A stretch of 52,932 nt of DNA from Desulfogranum japonicum DSM 18378 (GTDB lineage: Bacteria; Desulfobacterota; Desulfobulbia; Desulfobulbales; Desulfobulbaceae). Below, piece by piece: positions 44,982 through 52,932 of this stretch. How positions within the stretch are numbered: the first letter of the stretch is position 1; the number at the start of each line of letters is the position of its first letter. The notes below the pieces were generated by a model that worked only from the letters and a program-made list of their open reading frames with translations, was not told where the DNA came from and did not search any database. Position numbers and translations under genes: made by a program. The stretch lies in the NCBI RefSeq assembly GCF_000429945.1, contig NZ_AUCV01000044.1, positions 1-52,932 of the forward strand, in the 5' to 3' direction.

Positions 44982-46259
44982 TCAGCCGCAGCCTCCGCCG
45001 GTTCCTGTACAGGTGCCTTCGGCACAGGGGTTACGACGACCACGAAGCTGATTCAGATCTCTTTTTTCATATACGGCACGCAGGCCGTCTTCGATAAAAC
45101 CGGATGCCTCCACGGGCTTTACACCGGCACTGCTTAAAATCTCATAGGGTGTTTCGCCAACACCGCTGACCAGTACAGCCCTGCAATCACCTAAAATACG
45201 GGCCAGCTGATGCCATCGTTTAATACCGCCACCAATTTCCGCCGCAGGCCGCTCTTCCACCTTACGGTAACTGCCATCATCCATTTCCCAGATTTCAAAC
45301 GAGTTGGCTTCTCCCAGGTGCTGATTCACAAGCAGACCTTCAAGGGTGGCAACAGCCACATAGGGACGCCCATTGACCGGCATGGGCTTAATACTTGAGC
45401 AGGATGAAAGGCAACTTCTGAATTCTTCTGTTTTGTCATCATCCAACAGACCGACGGCGTCTGCACGACATCTGGTGCAATGACGCATCTGGGGCAGGTA
45501 CTGTTCTGCCATGGAGCGAATATTTTCCATGGTTTCCTTATCCGGCTGGGTCAAATTTCCAAACGGCGTGTTAGCATTGGGGAAAAGAGCCATGGCGTTG
45601 AAGAGATCAACCCCAAGCTCTTTCATTTTGCTGGCAATATCTTCAATATGATGGTCGTTGATGCCGGGAATAACAATACAGTTCACCTTTACGGTAATGC
45701 CATGTTCCTTTAATCTGCTAATGGCGGCAAGCTGGCGGGAAAGCAGCAGTTCTGCAGCCTGCAGTCCTCTGTAGACAACCTTGCCGTCTCGCACCCAGGA
45801 ATAGATATTCTGTCCGATTTCAGGATCAACAGCGCAGACCGTTATGGTTACATGCCCTACATTCAGTTCCGCCAATTCATCTATATACGGACCTATATTC
45901 ATGCCGTTGGAGGAAATGCAAAGCAGCATCTCAGGATGATTTTTATGAATCATACGCATGGTGCCCATGGTCTCATCACCATTGGCAAAAGGATCCCCCG
46001 GGCCTGCAATACCGGCAACAGTGATACGTGGTTCTTTTTCAAGAACACGTTTGACATATACCCCTGCCTGCTCTACGGTCAATACCTTGCTGGTTACACC
46101 CGGTCTGGATTCAAGCACGCAGTCATACTTGCGATCGCAAAAATTACATTTAATGTTACATTTTGGGGCAACAGGAAGATGCACTCGCCCGTATTTGCCT
46201 TTTGCCTTTACGTTAAAGCAGGGATGTTTCAAGAACTCTTTATCCTTTGAAGTCGTCAT
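44982..46259 (-). CDS. nifB: Nitrogenase cofactor biosynthesis protein NifB (radical SAM + NifX-like)
   Basis: A 425-residue enzyme that builds the NifB-cofactor, the 8Fe-9S-C precursor of FeMo-co, by radical SAM chemistry. The radical SAM cluster motif is KCNIKCNFCDRKYDC (Cys 34, 38, 41). The motif GIAGPGDPFAN contacts S-adenosylmethionine, and further Cys residues (HCTRCRAD; RSCLSSCSS) can hold extra clusters. The C-terminal NifX/NafY-like domain spans about residues 300-400, and the protein ends in a Cys/Gly-rich tail (CAEGTCTGTGGGCG). ATG 46259 has GAGG 8 bases upstream; ATG 46265 is an alternative. It is the last gene of nifE-nifN-nifB. Confidence 0.97.
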   Translation of the reverse strand: MTTSKDKEFLKHPCFNVKAKGKYGRVHLPVAPKCNIKCNFCDRKYDCVLESRPGVTSKVLTVEQAGVYVKRVLEKEPRITVAGIAGPGDPFANGDETMGTMRMIHKNHPEMLLCISSNGMNIGPYIDELAELNVGHVTITVCAVDPEIGQNIYSWVRDGKVVYRGLQAAELLLSRQLAAISRLKEHGITVKVNCIVIPGINDHHIEDIASKMKELGVDLFNAMALFPNANTPFGNLTQPDKETMENIRSMAEQYLPQMRHCTRCRADAVGLLDDDKTEEFRSCLSSCSSIKPMPVNGRPYVAVATLEGLLVNQHLGEANSFEIWEMDDGSYRKVEERPAAEIGGGIKRWHQLARILGDCRAVLVSGVGETPYEILSSAGVKPVEASGFIEDGLRAVYEKRDLNQLRGRRNPCAEGTCTGTGGGCG

Positions 46260-46291
46260 AGTCATATCCTCATTTATGAAGCATCTTCCGT

Positions 46292-47644
46292 TTACATATA
46301 GCTGTAGCCAATGGGTGAGTCGCTCTGTTTCTTGGCAATAACAGTATTGGTAATCAAATCAAACAAGCCCTGTGCACCATGGTAACCGAGGTGGAGAATC
46401 CTCTGGCCACCAACTCTGTCGTGGATGGGAAATCCCACCCGAATCATGGGAATTTCCATCTTACGGGCAAAGGAGTATCCTTTGGAATGCCCCACAACCA
46501 TGTCAACCTTTTCTTCTCTGGCAAGGTGCTCAATATCAAAGAAATCAACATCCTCTTTAACAATTGGCATGGCACAATCCAGGCCTTCCAAGACCGTGGC
46601 AATACTTTCTTCGAATTTTCCGCTGTGGCCGCCTGAAGCACAAAGCACAGGTTTGACACCGATTTCAGCAAGCAAGGCAGCCACTCCAACTACCAGGTCT
46701 TCCTCTCCATAGACAACAGCGCGTTTTCCACTGATATATTTATGCCCATCAACCATGGCATCAATGAGACGTCCCCTGGCACCGATATACTTTTCAGGCA
46801 TCGGTTTGCCGCTGATTTTAGTCAGCAAATCCATGAAGGCATCTGTTTCACGGATACCGATGGGCAATCCAGCCTGATAGAGCTGAACTCCGTATTTATC
46901 CCGCAGGACTGTGCCAGCTGTCTGGCCGGGTAGCGTTGATCCAAGTTCTATAGAAGCCTTGGCTCCTCCCATTTTACGAATATCATCCAGTGGCGTGCCA
47001 CCTTTCGGAACCAATGGATATTCATTGAGAGCGGGTCCATCCAAGGTGTCGCTGTAATCAGGCATCAAAGAATACTCGATGCCAAAATCTTCGCAGACAT
47101 CTTTGAGATAACGGATATCAGCTGTGGAAATAAACCCGCTGAATACATTAATTTTTTCATGCTTTGCAGCAGGACCGCTAAGCTGCTCTACAGTGGCTCT
47201 GGTTGCAGCTAGAAACCCTTCCATATGGGTACCGGCGTAGCTCGGCGTGGAGACATGAACCACTAACGGAGAATTTTCATCTGCAAATTCCTCTTTATAT
47301 TCATTGAGAATCATAGGAACATTGTCGCCAATGGTTTCCGTCAGACAGGTAGTGGCAACACCTATGATTTCAGGTGAATATTTGGCTGTGACGTTTTTCA
47401 ATCCCAGCTTCAGGTTAGCGGAGCCACCGTACACAGCATGTTTCTCTCCCAGGGATGAAGAGGCAATATCAATGGGCTCATTAAAATGACTGATAATGTA
47501 TCTGCGCATATACGTAGCACACCCCTGAGAACCATGTAAAAAGGGGACACATCCTTCTATACCGCGAAAAGCCAGCGAAGCACCTAGGGGTTTACAAAGT
47601 TTACAGGCGTTGGTGGTTGATGTATAATTTGGCATTTTGCTCAT
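46292..47644 (-). CDS. nifN: Nitrogenase iron-molybdenum cofactor scaffold NifN
   Basis: A 450-residue beta-like subunit of the NifEN scaffold on which NifB-cofactor is matured to FeMo-co. Its N-terminus carries the family's cluster-binding pattern (ACKLCKPLGASLAFRGIEG; GSQGCATYMRRYIISHF; TTCLTETIGDN). Three Rossmann-like segments follow. Its start overlaps the nifE stop by four bases (ATGA), so the two scaffold subunits are coupled. NifN rather than NifK is chosen because of the short N-terminus, the CKLC opening and position after nifE. Confidence 0.95.
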   Translation of the reverse strand: MSKMPNYTSTTNACKLCKPLGASLAFRGIEGCVPFLHGSQGCATYMRRYIISHFNEPIDIASSSLGEKHAVYGGSANLKLGLKNVTAKYSPEIIGVATTCLTETIGDNVPMILNEYKEEFADENSPLVVHVSTPSYAGTHMEGFLAATRATVEQLSGPAAKHEKINVFSGFISTADIRYLKDVCEDFGIEYSLMPDYSDTLDGPALNEYPLVPKGGTPLDDIRKMGGAKASIELGSTLPGQTAGTVLRDKYGVQLYQAGLPIGIRETDAFMDLLTKISGKPMPEKYIGARGRLIDAMVDGHKYISGKRAVVYGEEDLVVGVAALLAEIGVKPVLCASGGHSGKFEESIATVLEGLDCAMPIVKEDVDFFDIEHLAREEKVDMVVGHSKGYSFARKMEIPMIRVGFPIHDRVGGQRILHLGYHGAQGLFDLITNTVIAKKQSDSPIGYSYM

Positions 47645-49002
47645 GACGCACTCTCCTCACTGGCTCTACGGGGTACAAATTTCCACACCGGACTTGTCAC
47701 AGAGATATACACTTCGTGTGCAAAATTGAGCATGCCCGTAAATCCAGCTAATATTTCCTTTCGTTCGTGATTATGATCGCAGAAGGCTACGCCAAGTTTG
47801 TATGCGATTGGCCGTTCCTTTACTCCACCAACAAACACATCCACGTCCTTTTCCTTTATAAACGCTGAAAGCTCCAATGGATTGGCATCATCAACAATTA
47901 TTGTGCCGTCATCGGTTACCTGCTCCAGTTCTTCGTAATCTGCAGTGGTGCCGGTCTGGGAGCCAACCATGACGACTTCCATATCCAGCATGCGAAAAGC
48001 CTTGATCAAGGAAAAGGCCTTGAATGCGCCACCGACATAGATGGCAGCCTTTTTCCCCTTCAGTGCTTCTCTGTATTTTTTCAGATCAGGCAGAAGCGCT
48101 CCCAACTCTTCCCTGACCAGGCTTTTAGCCTTTTCCATGAGCTCAGGATCATCAAAATGCCTGGCAACGGAATACAGCGACTCAGCCATGTCATCTACTC
48201 CAGAGTAGGAGACACGTATGGACGGAATGCCATATTTTTCTTTCATTATGTTCGCCAACTCCATGGTTGCGCCGGAACACTGCACTACGTTGAGTGATGC
48301 TCCGTGGGCACGCTGTATATCGGCAACCCGGCCATCACCGGTTATGTTGGCAACTATTTCAATACCGATGCGCTCGTAATATTCACGAATGAGCCATATC
48401 TCACCGGCAAGGTTAAAATCTCCCAGAATATTGATGGAATACTTGGAAATACCTGCGGTATCGCCGGTTCCAACCAGACTGGACAGGGCGTTACATGCCG
48501 CTTCATACCCTGCACGTTTGTTCCCTTTGAACCCTTCAGACTGTACCGGTAAAACCGGAATGCCCTTTGCCTTAGAAACCTTTTTGCAGACAGCTTCCAG
48601 ATCATCACCAATGATGCCGACAATACATGTAGAGTAGACAAAAGCAGCATTGGGCTTATGACGGTCAATGAGTTCATCAAGGGCAGCTTCGAGCTTTTTC
48701 TCTCCCCCAAAAATAACGTCCATCTCCTGCAGATCAGTAGAGAAAGAAAGCCTGTGAATTTCGGGTCCAGAGGACAAGGCACCGCGAATATCCCAGGTAT
48801 ATACAGCACAGCCTATGGGGCCATGAACCAGGTGCAGCGCATCGGCAATGGGATACAGGACAACTCTGGAACCACAAAAAACGCAGGCTCGCTGACTGAC
48901 TGCTCCAGCAAGACTATCTTTATTACAGTCTATTTCGAAAGGTGCAGCGCCCTTACGGACGACCTGTCCCTTACGTTCATCGAGTACTGTTGCTGTGCTC
49001 AT
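47641..49002 (-). CDS. nifE: Nitrogenase iron-molybdenum cofactor scaffold NifE
   Basis: A 453-residue alpha-like subunit of NifEN. Characteristic blocks are QRACVFCGSRVVLYPIADA, LHLVHGPIGCAVYTWDIRG and VYSTCIVGIIGDD. The cysteines in these hold the NifEN cluster; CVFCG has an extra Cys relative to many homologues. The gene is first in the nifENB operon, with GGAAG 7 bases before the ATG and a leader of about 44 bases after a -24/-12 promoter. It therefore needs sigma-54 and most likely NifA. Confidence 0.96.
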   Translation of the reverse strand: MSTATVLDERKGQVVRKGAAPFEIDCNKDSLAGAVSQRACVFCGSRVVLYPIADALHLVHGPIGCAVYTWDIRGALSSGPEIHRLSFSTDLQEMDVIFGGEKKLEAALDELIDRHKPNAAFVYSTCIVGIIGDDLEAVCKKVSKAKGIPVLPVQSEGFKGNKRAGYEAACNALSSLVGTGDTAGISKYSINILGDFNLAGEIWLIREYYERIGIEIVANITGDGRVADIQRAHGASLNVVQCSGATMELANIMKEKYGIPSIRVSYSGVDDMAESLYSVARHFDDPELMEKAKSLVREELGALLPDLKKYREALKGKKAAIYVGGAFKAFSLIKAFRMLDMEVVMVGSQTGTTADYEELEQVTDDGTIIVDDANPLELSAFIKEKDVDVFVGGVKERPIAYKLGVAFCDHNHERKEILAGFTGMLNFAHEVYISVTSPVWKFVPRRASEESAS

Positions 49003-49575: not shown

Positions 49576-49893
49576 TCACGTAAACTTAATCTGCAGGGTT
49601 TCCTCTTCTTCATTGGGAACCAGGGCATATTCCCCCTGACGGATAAGGGTCAAGCCAAACTGCTTTCCCTGTTGATGCAACGTGTCAAAGATCGCCCCCC
49701 GCTTATCCGGCTCACTTTCCGTATTAAACCAGACCAGTACCTCTTCGCCCTGCTCTCCCATCTGTAACAAAAAGGCATTATGCTCAATGAAGACCAGATC
49801 ATCATAACAATGGGTCATCTGATACCCGGTACTTTCCAACATACTGACGATTACTCCCAGTGGTCGATATGGGACAGCCTCCTGTGCACTCAC
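49576..49893 (-). CDS. Conserved-looking small protein in the nif cluster, unknown function
   Basis: A 105-residue soluble protein with mixed beta/alpha character (YQMTHCYDDLVFIEHNAFLLQ; EVLVWFNTESEPDKRG; GLTLIRQGEYALVPNEEEE). I do not recognise a family. The GTG start is chosen because GAGG lies 6 bases before it. It is the last of four tightly packed genes downstream of the NifB paralogue and likely belongs to the nifK transcript. It has no Cys-rich motif (one Cys only), so cluster binding is unlikely. Confidence 0.65.
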   Translation of the reverse strand: MSAQEAVPYRPLGVIVSMLESTGYQMTHCYDDLVFIEHNAFLLQMGEQGEEVLVWFNTESEPDKRGAIFDTLHQQGKQFGLTLIRQGEYALVPNEEEETLQIKFT

Positions 49894-49915: not shown

Positions 49916-50161
49916 TTATTCTTCTGAACCTATCGTTCGAATGGATTCAACAGTATCCCAACTATAATAGGTGTTTACTGTCTCTGCATCGAGCTTCTCT
50001 GTTATACGGATAAACCCTTCACCAAGAAACATCGCGGCTTCAGCATACACCCTGCCCTCATTAATCTGCAGCTTCACCCCCTTTCTCAGTTTTCTGGAGA
50101 GCGTGCCGTGCACAGGCATGGATGCATATTCAAAAATCTTTTCCATGGTTTCTTTGTTCAT
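49916..50161 (-). CDS. Small nif-cluster protein, unknown function
   Basis: An 81-residue protein without cysteines (MNKETMEKIFEYASMP opening; GEGFIRITEKLDAETVN in the second half). I cannot place it in a family. The start at 50161 is supported by GAGGT 5 bases upstream; the longer frame to 50212 adds unlikely sequence. It lies 22 bases upstream of the next small gene and shares the GAGGTGT ribosome-site context with it, so the two are probably translated from one transcript as an accessory pair. Confidence 0.6.
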   Translation of the reverse strand: MNKETMEKIFEYASMPVHGTLSRKLRKGVKLQINEGRVYAEAAMFLGEGFIRITEKLDAETVNTYYSWDTVESIRTIGSEE

Positions 50162-50416
50162 ACTACACCTCGCAATTATAGCAAAAAAATACAATGAGCC
50201 CGCATTTCTCAATTTCCCCAGGACATGCGTTTACTCACTTAAAAAACATTGCTTTCCTGGGAAATTCAAAAAATCTACCTCTCGGAGCGAGCACTTTTGA
50301 CTGCACCAGCTTTGTCACCGAGCATTTGTGCACACAAACGAAAACTCAGCCTGTTGGGCACGACTGTATTTCCGGCGGATTACAGTTACTGCAAAATATC
50401 CTCGTGGAAAAGCAGA

Positions 50417-50818
50417 CTAGCCGGCCAACCTCGGCACCAGCAAATTATGGATATCATCACCAATACCAAGAAACCTCTCCACATCCTCGTCTGTAGGAAT
50501 CTGTATTGTATAAGCATCCACATCACAGATCTCCTGGAAAGAATCCAGATAGTTCAGCTTTTCAATCAAATCGCCGCTCAAAAGCAAATGACGACTCAAG
50601 GCGACACGCAAATCTCCTATGGTATGATTGTCAGCCAGATCACCGTTTTTCATCAGGAAAGCCATGACTAATTTTTCAATCCCCATACAAACCAGATTGT
50701 ACAGTGTCTCAGGCGAAAACGCTTTTTTACGTTGTTTCCAGGCGTTTTTGGCTACACCCATAAACTGCTCGCCATCGCGACGATAAATTTCCCAATCATC
50801 TATTTCAACACCAATCAT
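50417..50818 (-). CDS. HEPN-like domain protein in the nif cluster
   Basis: A 133-residue all-helical protein resembling HEPN domains: ETLYNLVCMGIEKLVMAFL is the first-helix pattern, followed by NHTIGDLRVALSRH and IHNLLVPRL. An R-x5-H arrangement (RVALSRH) is visible, but its position differs from the usual catalytic RX4-6H, so RNase activity is not implied. No partner nucleotidyltransferase is adjacent. Its place among nif genes suggests an accessory or small-molecule or protein-binding role. The ATG has AGG about 8 bases upstream. Confidence 0.6.
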   Translation of the reverse strand: MIGVEIDDWEIYRRDGEQFMGVAKNAWKQRKKAFSPETLYNLVCMGIEKLVMAFLMKNGDLADNHTIGDLRVALSRHLLLSGDLIEKLNYLDSFQEICDVDAYTIQIPTDEDVERFLGIGDDIHNLLVPRLAG

Positions 50819-50921: not shown

Positions 50922-51224
50922 TTATCCGATCAGGTACTCTGCAGGCGGCTCACCATCTTCGACACCATCGAGTATGGCATCAATGACCTCTTCACTGTCT
51001 ACACCTTTGAACCACCAGTTATCAGGCTGAACAACCATTATCGGACCGGACTCACATTGTTTCAGACAACCGGTGGCGATAACCTGCATATCCAGCCCAC
51101 GGTCCAGAATTTCTTCTTCTATATACTGCAGAAATCCATCTGTCTGCTTGTGGCAGATGCCCTTTGGATCACCTTTTAAGCGAAAACTCTGACAGACAAG
51201 AATCTGTTTCTCCGGAATAGCCAT
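50922..51224 (-). CDS. Thioredoxin-like [2Fe-2S] ferredoxin
   Basis: A 100-residue protein of the thioredoxin-like ferredoxin (Shethna-type) family. The four cluster cysteines are C11 and C24 (C-x12-C within VCQSF...KGIC) plus C53 and C57 (ATGCLKQCESGP). The start at 51224 is set by a strong AGGAGA. Such ferredoxins are found in nif clusters, where they may supply electrons or protect nitrogenase. Here it lies directly after the NifB paralogue, so it could serve as that protein's electron partner; this is inferred from position only. Confidence 0.88.
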   Translation of the reverse strand: MAIPEKQILVCQSFRLKGDPKGICHKQTDGFLQYIEEEILDRGLDMQVIATGCLKQCESGPIMVVQPDNWWFKGVDSEEVIDAILDGVEDGEPPAEYLIG

Positions 51225-51294: not shown

Positions 51295-52470
51295 TTACTT
51301 TTTTAAACCTTTCCCTTTTTTGCCTCCGCCGTACAACACATCAACACATCCTTCCACATTATCAGTAACAGACATTACCCTGATGCCGTTCTCGCCAAGT
51401 ACTTGTCTCGGACTTTCACCAGCACTTGCAGCAAGCAAAACAAAACAGTCAGTAAGAACTTTCGCCAGCTCCTGCCAACGGTTTTTCCCACTACCCGGCT
51501 CAGGCGCATCCCTGGTCTCGATCAGACTGGCCAGACCATCACCCTGCCTGGGTCCATACACCAGGACTTTAACCGCATGCCCAAGGTGTAAGTCAATATC
51601 CATACCATTGGAACTGACCACAGCGACATTGGGTCGCTCTTTGCTGGGCTTAGGCAAAGTGGAATGCATTACACCTGCTTCTTCGGGGTCATCACACTCT
51701 ACCTGAAAATCTCCGAGCGAGTGAATCACAGGAAGAACGTTTGCACATCTTGCCTTCAGTTCAGCCATGGCAGCACACCCAGGCTCCTGTTCAAGTTCCC
51801 CGTCGCTGCCATATATCTGTCCCGGCACAAGAGACAGGGCAACCAGTCCTTTTTCTTTAGCCTGGAGAGCAAAACTTTCAGCCTTCTCCAAGTTCACTCC
51901 AGGATAGAGAGTAGCACTGCCGGTAACAGTAATGCCTGCACCTTGCAAAGCAGCAATGGCCTCCTCCCTTTCCTGCAGCAGCAACTCTGCTGCACTGGAA
52001 ACAGGAACGGTTTTCCGTGCCGGACGAAGCCATTGATATACCGCTGTAAGAGTTTCGAGATCAAAACCATCAGTGATAAGCTCTACATACTTAACCCCTG
52101 TATCTGCAAGGGTTTGCGCATATTTGGCAATACCAAAGCCCAGTGTTCTCAACGCAAAACAAAGCTGAGGATGCCGTTGACGAAGCAATGAAAAGACCTC
52201 CACAACCTCACCTAAGGAGGCCATGGGATCACCTGGCCCGACAACACCCACGAGTATATCCTCTCCAAGTTGCAAATGATCACGCGTCTCTTCAAACAGC
52301 GCAAGCGCCTCACCAGGCAGCAAAACATCCTGCGTCACTTTTTTCGAAGACGCATATTTTGTCCGGCAAATAGCCACGGGTGCAATGGGCAACAAAATCA
52401 CTGAATGATCAAAATAGGTATTCTGCGTGGTCAAATTATTTTTGTAAGCAGCAAAGGAAAGAACGTTCAT
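51295..52470 (-). CDS. NifB paralogue lacking radical SAM cysteines, with NifX-like domain
   Basis: A 391-residue protein that aligns with the NifB in this same window. NifB's LPVAPKCNIKCNFC is LPIAPVAICRTKYA here, so all three cluster cysteines are replaced by Ala, Thr and Ala. The S-adenosylmethionine-contact segment VGPGDPMAS is kept. The C-terminal third matches the NifX/NafY-like domain (RPNVAVVSSNGMDIDLHLGHA; NRWQELAKVLTDCFVLL). Radical SAM chemistry is therefore not expected; binding of a cofactor or of a precursor is more likely. The ATG at 52470 has AGGG 5 bases upstream. It follows nifK by about 70 bases. Confidence 0.85.
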   Translation of the reverse strand: MNVLSFAAYKNNLTTQNTYFDHSVILLPIAPVAICRTKYASSKKVTQDVLLPGEALALFEETRDHLQLGEDILVGVVGPGDPMASLGEVVEVFSLLRQRHPQLCFALRTLGFGIAKYAQTLADTGVKYVELITDGFDLETLTAVYQWLRPARKTVPVSSAAELLLQEREEAIAALQGAGITVTGSATLYPGVNLEKAESFALQAKEKGLVALSLVPGQIYGSDGELEQEPGCAAMAELKARCANVLPVIHSLGDFQVECDDPEEAGVMHSTLPKPSKERPNVAVVSSNGMDIDLHLGHAVKVLVYGPRQGDGLASLIETRDAPEPGSGKNRWQELAKVLTDCFVLLAASAGESPRQVLGENGIRVMSVTDNVEGCVDVLYGGGKKGKGLKK

Positions 52471-52542
52471 GATGTCCCTAAAAAAGGGTAAAGGTGGTGC
52501 AACAGCAGCCGTCATGCGGCCACTGCTGCAGAATATAGAGTG

Positions 52543-52932
52543 TTACAGTACAAGCTCAAATTTGGTTTCTGTGGCATCACGATCAAGTCGATCCAGCAAC
52601 ACTCCCAGAATTTTTTCCAGAAGTCGCAAACCACCCATGTATCCTACGGTTGGAAAATGCTGATGCCCCTGGCGATCAAGGATGGGGAAGCCCCAGCGTA
52701 CAAACGGGATATCCTCATCACGAGCTATATACTTGCAGTAGGTGTTGCCGATAAGCAGGTCAACAGGCTCGTTCTTGATCAACTGATGCAGCATGAACAT
52801 ATCACTGGCTGCCTTCACGTTTACTTCACGCCCCATCTCGGCAGTAATCTCTTTGATACGTTTCTCAAACTTCTTACCAGGCGTACCGGTGATGATATGA
52901 ATCGGCTGCATATCAATGGACACCAGGAACTC
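52543..52932 (-). CDS. nifK: Nitrogenase MoFe protein beta chain NifK (3' end, partial)
   Basis: The C-terminal 129 residues of a nitrogenase component 1 beta subunit, running off the right edge. The visible part holds VDLLIGNTYCKYIARD, VRWGFPILDRQGHQHFPTVGYMGGLRLLEKIL and ends in KFELVL; the FP-D--GH pattern is typical of NifK. The type (Mo versus V/Fe) cannot be decided from this fragment, but the adjacent nifENB points to the molybdenum enzyme. It is upstream of the NifB paralogue on the same strand, so nifHD presumably lie further right. Confidence 0.9.
   Translation of the reverse strand, partial: EFLVSIDMQPIHIITGTPGKKFEKRIKEITAEMGREVNVKAASDMFMLHQLIKNEPVDLLIGNTYCKYIARDEDIPFVRWGFPILDRQGHQHFPTVGYMGGLRLLEKILGVLLDRLDRDATETKFELVL

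Follow-up and report, generated by a model that had tools for sequence, protein, structure and literature searches.

A NifB paralogue without radical SAM cysteines is probably a carrier for a nitrogenase metal cofactor in Desulfobulbus-related sulfate reducers

What is the role of a NifB-type protein that lacks the cysteines of the radical SAM cluster and is encoded between nifK and a ferredoxin gene? NifB, in its two-domain form, is the carbide-inserting radical SAM maturase. The window analyzed here, the whole stretch of 52,932 nucleotides from Desulfogranum japonicum DSM 18378, encodes a true NifB and, in the same cluster, a second protein that we call pNifB, a cysteine-less NifB paralogue. 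The original prediction saw in it a retained but catalytically silent NifB that could carry NifB-co or replace NifX or NafY. Our sequence comparisons suggest that pNifB is probably an undescribed carrier for a nitrogenase metal cofactor, present in many Desulfobulbus-related nitrogen-fixing sulfate reducers, since the chemistry appears to be lost while the cofactor-holding end is kept and the gene lies next to nitrogenase genes.

Read from the contig end, the genes follow in the order nifK (3' part), pNifB, ferredoxin, three small genes, nifE, a nifN-type gene, and nifB (Table 1). The predicted place of pNifB was confirmed, with the 3' part of nifK upstream and a [2Fe-2S] ferredoxin downstream. 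The predicted extent, 51295 to 52470, fits a likely start at Met16, although the reading frame itself reaches 52515; Met16 (52470) was nearly invariant across 59 aligned members and is therefore the likelier start. The ferredoxin scored 54.9 bits with NF041612, below the cut-off of 150, and 204.5 bits against the ferredoxin cluster of the named loci; it came after pNifB in other loci as well. The three small genes, which had no Pfam match above cut-off, matched conserved nif neighbors of unknown function (127, 127, and 161 bits). Among the best 80 of 120 named loci, the neighbors c9, c18, and a HEPN-like gene occurred in 24, 11, and 49, respectively.

Table 1. Features of the pNifB locus (positions in the window)
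Feature	Position	Strand	Basis
nifK, 3' part, cut by the contig end, directly upstream of pNifB	52543..52932	minus	PF00148 and TIGR01286
pNifB	51295..52470	minus	Met16 start within the 406-aa ORF 51295-52515
Predicted TIM barrel of the NifB type, inert, residues 38-265 (406-aa ORF numbering)	51721..52404	minus	AlphaFold2 model
Site of the lost CX3CX2C (A48, T52, A55)	52351..52374	minus	Alignment with the window's NifB
GPGDP motif kept from NifB	52225..52239	minus	Alignment counts
NifX-like cofactor-binding domain, residues 288-399	51319..51654	minus	PF02579 above cut-off
H310-L311-G312, equivalent of the NifX H35/NafY H121 ligand	51580..51588	minus	Alignment
Thioredoxin-like [2Fe-2S] ferredoxin, directly downstream, conserved neighbor	50922..51224	minus	NF041612
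Three small genes, ferredoxin to nifE	49576-49893, 49916-50212, 50417-50818	minus	Conserved nif neighbors
nifE	47641-49002	minus	Profile matches
nifN-type gene	46292-47644	minus	Under the cut-off with TIGR01285 and with TIGR01286
True NifB, same cluster, comparison protein	44982..46265	minus	TIGR01290, 375.3 bits (cut-off 343.65)

pNifB is a distant paralogue of the window's NifB, with 28% identity over 379 columns (E 1e-39). Where the cluster cysteines lie, NifB reads LPVAPKCNIKCNFC and pNifB reads LPIAPVAICRTKYA; the stretches quoted in the original prediction were found in the sequence, and the alignment placed A48, T52, and A55 of pNifB opposite C36, C40, and C43 of NifB, so that all three cysteines are replaced, as had been claimed. 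The lone Cys50 of pNifB is off-register relative to the cluster cysteines. Motifs were counted in an alignment of 101 pNifB orthologues and 26 NifBs. Cysteines 1 and 2 were each present in 0 of 101 members, which excludes chance, and cysteine 3 in 14; the search of nif clusters for orthologues with the same substitutions had been proposed as a check, and a local mutation was rejected, the loss of cysteines 1 and 2 being common to all aligned members from many genera.

The remaining motifs of NifB (HPC, ExRP, and CX2CRxDAxG as listed in excerpts of PMC5715403, together with TxTxN) have largely gone as well. The HPC histidine was kept in 6 of the 101 members, 5 of which have the complete HPC; no member has the Glu of ExRP, a loop that is deleted in 100; at the Asn of TxTxN, 8 members retain Asn and 91 have Asp or Glu; and for CX2CRxDAxG the counts of its two cysteines were 1 and 8, with a single member having both. 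The window's pNifB reads NNL at HPC, --K at ExRP, and LFQEC at the CX2CRxDAxG columns, and has E, I, and D at the three TxTxN columns, which does not match TxTxN. At the AGPG motif it reads VGPG, keeping GPG and not Ala, and among the 101 members GPGDP kept its first G in 99, P in 99, second G in 101, and D in 97. The window's NifB has a Cys at residue 144 (TITVC), in place of the otherwise mostly conserved Asn of TxTxN, a position that is Cys in 4 of the 26 NifBs. Profile scores fit these losses: pNifB reached 94.6 bits with TIGR01290, the NifB equivalog (cut-off 343.65), and 23 bits with PF04055, Radical_SAM (cut-off 29.5), which matched only from model position 50. By its motifs, pNifB is probably a NifB without its chemistry that has kept the cofactor-holding end.

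That end is the C-terminal domain, which matched PF02579 at 33.4 bits (cut-off 26.3); the claim that it and GPGDP remain was thus upheld. HLG, including its histidine, was kept in 101 of 101 pNifB members, and the alignment shows this histidine in NifB too. Excerpts of PMC13128457 and PMC8496260 describe H35 of NifX as binding one end of NifB-co and H121 of NafY as the key FeMo-co ligand, and excerpts of PMC13128457 give the cofactor histidine as missing from NifY and NafX. In some Desulfobulbus-type pNifBs (L017, L018, L022, L024, L035, and L037), a Cys-rich insert (e.g., CGCDCGPRCGTG) lies between the barrel and the NifX-like domain.

Structure prediction and comparison, another check proposed with the original prediction, was carried out. 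The AlphaFold2 model of pNifB (pLDDT 87.2, from 59 sequences) was predicted to have the barrel fold of NifB, its closest solved structures being the NifBs 6y1x (Z 26.4, rmsd 2.4 over 230 residues) and 7jma (Z 25.8), with the best match other than NifB at Z 17.3. Because these whole-model matches left the C-terminal domain uncovered, the domain was folded alone. Its best model had a pLDDT of 88.7 (the other four, 65 to 72) and gave two tied best matches, one to the NifX chain of the NifENX structure 9ian at Z 12.6 and one to 1p90, the NafY core, at Z 12.4; other PF02579 proteins scored Z about 11 and below. The barrel is thus modeled as NifB-like and the domain as NifX/NafY-like.

Conservation is distributed differently in the two proteins. 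Median pairwise identity among pNifBs was 39% in the barrel and 65% in the NifX-like domain (5050 pairs), while NifB showed the reverse, with 62% in the barrel and 53% in the domain (325 and 300 pairs). An earlier sampling agreed with this inverted pattern, which suggests that constraint has shifted to the cofactor-binding end. Values of dN/dS were 0.11 to 0.33 for the whole gene (the 60 closest of 79 DNA pairs), 0.11 to 0.41 for the barrel, and 0.02 to 0.26 for the NifX-like domain (the same 60 pairs), compared with 0.02 to 0.15 for nifK (51 of the same 60 pairs); the pairs overlap and are not independent, and a few ORFs carry N-terminal overhangs that possibly add noise. pNifB is under purifying selection, with weaker constraint than nifK. 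No internal stops, which the original prediction had linked to relaxed selection, were found: the frames are open, and the single stop that fell within a pNifB match (in G054) is the codon that ends the gene itself. Among 59 members, 28 columns are invariant.

When 257 genomes of the window's order were scanned with a profile built from 29 orthologues, the listed places put a pNifB orthologue in 142. Of 249 genomes of the order searched for nifK, 143 gave a match at E 1e-100 and 130 of the 249 scored above the model cut-off; 130 of the 143 nifK-bearing genomes also carry pNifB. At 119 of the 131 pNifB places in these genomes, the gene follows nifK immediately and in the same orientation; 3 places are on the nifK contig but farther away, with one partial match (G239) at a distance of only 698 bases, and 9 are on another contig, some perhaps as an effect of assembly. 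Twelve genomes with a listed pNifB had no nifK match, among them the window's own, whose nifK is cut; the nifK survey drew 8 genomes fewer, and some of the 12 may lie outside that draw. The 13 nifK genomes without a listed pNifB were inspected singly. One contains the start of pNifB, cut by the contig end (G020); in three the contig ends at nifK (G053, G146, and G244); one has a version reduced to the NifX-like domain (G194, described below); in five nifK is followed by the ferredoxin gene with no pNifB there (G066, G185, G187, G219, and G245; small ORFs lie between in G187); and three have a lower-scoring nifK and no pNifB in the stretch read (G220, G247, and G248).

Within the window's family, 45 of 73 genomes matched the protein, NifB matches included. 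Farther afield, a 395-genome sample of the phylum, which also contained members of the order, had pNifB in 9 genomes outside the order (E <1e-90; in two pieces in G542). In family f54, 34 of 149 genomes matched at E <1e-90; the grouping of named Humidesulfovibrio and Pseudodesulfovibrio loci with this family makes Desulfovibrionaceae its probable identity. These genome-by-genome profile searches covered the phylum, and the range beyond it was covered by a pattern scan of named genomes. A single-protein scan of the named genomes returned no relative, and a profile scan returned 120, of which the best 80 were kept; these belong mostly to Desulfobulbaceae, Desulfocapsaceae, and unplaced Deltaproteobacteria or Proteobacteria, with a few Desulfovibrionaceae and Desulfobacteraceae. 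Cable bacteria (Electronema, Electrothrix, and genus kin) keep pNifB away from nifK; in them and close kin (L177, L178, L179, and L180), a module of pNifB, ferredoxin, GNAT, HEPN-like, and c9 genes lies near amt and PII genes. This placement means that operon position does not settle the partner of pNifB. A plasmid search matched ten records. In the two Nitratidesulfovibrio vulgaris plasmids read, NifB is present as a full frame, and nifK and the ferredoxin gene are about 190 bases apart with no pNifB in the gap; these plasmids and the five genomes of the order without pNifB argue that it is not essential everywhere. On the N. vulgaris RCH1 plasmid (L147:11932-13476), NifB has a frame of 514 aa whose NifX-like end contains a long insert of low complexity, and the plasmid's gene table, which is incomplete, shows just a short piece of this frame.

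Both fold and sequence place pNifB on the NifB side of the family. In a quick tree of 47 orthologues and 19 NifBs, the latter from these lineages only, each group lay on one side of a branch with SH-aLRT 100. The nifK-[x]-ferredoxin place of f54 holds a related gene in further forms. Eighteen f54 loci were fetched: two (G650 and G687) have CX3CX2C, AGPG, and CX2CRxDA, lack HPC, and show QxRP and YxAxN; two (G645 and G683) keep CX3CX2C and have neither HPC nor CX2CRxDAxG; 11 lack CX3CX2C; and of the rest, two copies are cut by the contig end and one locus shows only NifB. CX3CX2C is likewise missing from six additional f54 loci (L203 to L208). HLG is kept in all 14 forms of the motif table. The relatives with CX3CX2C lie at the base in a quick tree with its root set on NifB. 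One locus (L223) has kept HPC and lost the radical SAM cysteines, so the sequence in which motifs disappeared was not always the same. At L209:10023-11234 and L215:5180-6391, the gene between nifK and ferredoxin is a second NifB-type gene with CX3CX2C and CX2CRxDA intact and no HPC, which could encode a second active maturase.

At the other extreme, G194 encodes a 144-aa protein that consists of the NifX-like domain alone, with the motif DLHLGEA, 9 bases behind the nifK stop. Its nearest rows by tree path are pNifBs (62% identity to the closest), a placement based on few columns and no starred branch, and this genome (85% complete) has no full-length pNifB among the listed orthologues. G761 and G750 were considered as further versions without a barrel; their NifX-only matches are cut by contig ends and were not counted. 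These forms would fit a history in which the protein encoded behind nifK started as a second NifB, perhaps an active one, then lost its clusters and became a dedicated carrier or insertion chaperone, a radical SAM pseudoenzyme that is standard in nitrogenase assembly of many Desulfobacterota, with the four CX3CX2C relatives as survivors and the domain-only protein as an end-point. We regard this history as evenly poised between right and wrong.

For the present function, our main reading, to which we give a probability of roughly 0.6, is that pNifB is a pseudoenzyme, formerly a second NifB and now a cofactor carrier at NifDK or NifEN, with a NafY/NifX-like function in a separate protein. In this second NifB of the nif operon, the motifs by which the barrel binds clusters would be gone, and the protein would serve through its C-terminal NifX-like domain. 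His310 of HLG would bind one end of NifB-co, or finished FeMo-co, while the inert barrel would act as a docking and shielding platform, and pNifB would hold the cofactor or hand it over at apo-NifDK or NifEN, as NafY and NifX do elsewhere. Cofactor binding, partner, and direction of transfer are what we infer, the partner being a guess from gene order. Support comes from the retention of HLG in every aligned member in which radical SAM cysteines 1 and 2 are gone, the inverted conservation, the dN/dS values, the place behind nifK, the domain-only protein of G194, and the predicted NifX/NafY fold. The universal histidine, purifying selection, and the gene's position likewise favor the predicted retention of a catalytically silent NifB. 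Against the carrier reading stands the presence of the HLG histidine in NifB too, whose NifX-like domain is dispensable in Klebsiella oxytoca according to excerpts of PMC5715403.

pNifB could instead shuttle NifB-co from NifB to NifEN, replacing NifX, with a barrel that mimics NifB at the NifEN dock. The fold of the domain, whose best match is the NifX of NifENX (tied with the NafY core), the position of pNifB on the NifB side of the family, and the failure of TIGR02663 (NifX) to match in the window's genome at E 1e-6 are consistent with this. TIGR02663 gave no row for pNifB itself at E up to 1, and the other PF02579 proteins of the window's genome lie outside this contig. In the order, TIGR02663 matched 44 of 249 genomes at E 1e-6, none above cut-off; 9 of these were NifB reading frames and 35 were shorter, standalone NifX-type frames, and 28 of the 35 genomes with such a frame also carry pNifB (28 against the 142 pNifB genomes, from draws that differ by 8 genomes). 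The shuttle role is therefore not vacant in these 28. Among the five clean losers of pNifB, only two (G219 and G245) have a NifX-type frame, with none at threshold in G066, G185, and G187. The gene is also encoded behind nifK, not beside nifE or nifN, in 119 of the 131 places. Replacement of NifX, with nifX absent where pNifB is present, had been part of the original prediction and was not supported; we consider the shuttle unlikely. Some genomes of the order have, shortly after nifB, a small NifX-type gene that stands alone and carries an HFG motif (L181:1501-1809 and L182:1483-1809).

Another reading makes pNifB a regulator or stabilizer of NifB or the nitrogenase complex that carries no cofactor itself; its dead barrel would adjust the flow of cofactor by pairing with NifB or by occupying the partners of NifB. 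Purifying selection on the barrel, GPGDP in nearly all members, and the two f54 forms that keep the radical SAM cysteines with neither HPC nor CX2CRxDAxG would suit such a role, but the strongest constraint falls on the NifX-like domain and its histidine, and it is this domain alone that G194 keeps. We think this reading improbable.

The barrel might also have taken on a new job, binding SAM, a nucleotide, or another metal cluster through residues that differ from NifB's, in which case the NifX-like domain would play a helping part. Four barrel residues (W162, R164, P165, and N208) are invariant across the 101 members, GPGD is kept, cysteine 3 persists in 14 members, and some Desulfobulbus members have the Cys-rich insert before the NifX-like domain. 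No barrel Cys or His, however, is among the columns kept in at least 93% of the 101 members, and the barrel is less conserved than the NifX-like domain and can be absent altogether (G194); we think such a new job very improbable. A decaying duplicate or pseudogene, as proposed for Paenibacillus nifB3 and nifB4 (excerpts of PMC8287671), would account for evolution faster than that of NifB (barrel identity and tree path lengths) and for the five nif genomes of the order that lack the gene at the locus, but it was rejected on the dN/dS values, the open frames, the 28 invariant columns, and the spread over 130 of 143 nifK genomes.

The travel of cofactor between NifB, NifEN, and NifDK matters for nitrogenase assembly and for moving nitrogen fixation into new hosts, and pNifB adds an unlisted putative assembly protein that is common in the window's order, which includes sulfate reducers and cable bacteria. 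With natural forms that range from CX3CX2C kept through cysteine-less and domain only to absent, experiments can tell apart what the barrel and the NifX-like domain each do. In the full-text literature of open-licence papers, we found no account of a cysteine-less or inactive NifB of this kind. An earlier NifB survey (excerpts of PMC5715403) began with 390 putative NifBs and kept 289 after discarding sequences that lacked motifs, in most cases CX3CX2C; its authors took the removed sequences for misannotated NifX, and by these excerpts sequences of pNifB's description were filtered out, perhaps pNifBs among them.

Among known systems, NifB itself shares with pNifB the barrel and C-terminal NifX-like domain, the predicted barrel fold, GPGDP, and the HLG histidine; the window's pNifB differs in lacking CX3CX2C, HPC, ExRP, TxTxN, and CX2CRxDAxG and in having a separate intact NifB in the same cluster. 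NifX has in common with it the predicted fold of the C-terminal domain and the H35-type histidine, but is a small single-domain protein, whereas in pNifB the domain is preceded by a dead barrel some 230 residues long. NafY escorts FeMo-co to apo-NifDK, and NafY and NifY are NifX-like proteins with a separate N-terminal domain. They resemble pNifB in having two domains and a C-terminal NifX-like core with the predicted core fold; their N-terminal part is a helical apo-NifDK-binding domain, whereas that of pNifB is a NifB barrel. PF16844, the NafY N-domain, gave no row for pNifB and matched 0 of 249 genomes, a model that also missed the NifY-type protein of Rahnella and matched no control. In Rahnella the gene order is nifHDK, nifT, a two-domain NifB/NifX-family protein, nifE, nifN, and a second NifB/NifX-family protein. 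We take the two-domain protein behind nifK-nifT to be NifY, from its position, and the place of pNifB, likewise behind nifK, is then about that of NifY. The histidine is of the H121 type in NafY, as in pNifB, and is missing from NifY (excerpts of PMC13128457). Paenibacillus NifB3 and NifB4 are extra NifB copies that have CX3CX2C and are >57% similar to the main NifB, two NifB3 proteins lacking CX2CRxDAxG, and their authors regard the genes as possibly pseudogenes (excerpts of PMC8287671); pNifB, in contrast, is widespread, far diverged, and under selection. By the tests applied here, pNifB would belong to neither NifB nor NifX and is best described as a putative NifX/NafY-like cofactor domain on a dead NifB.
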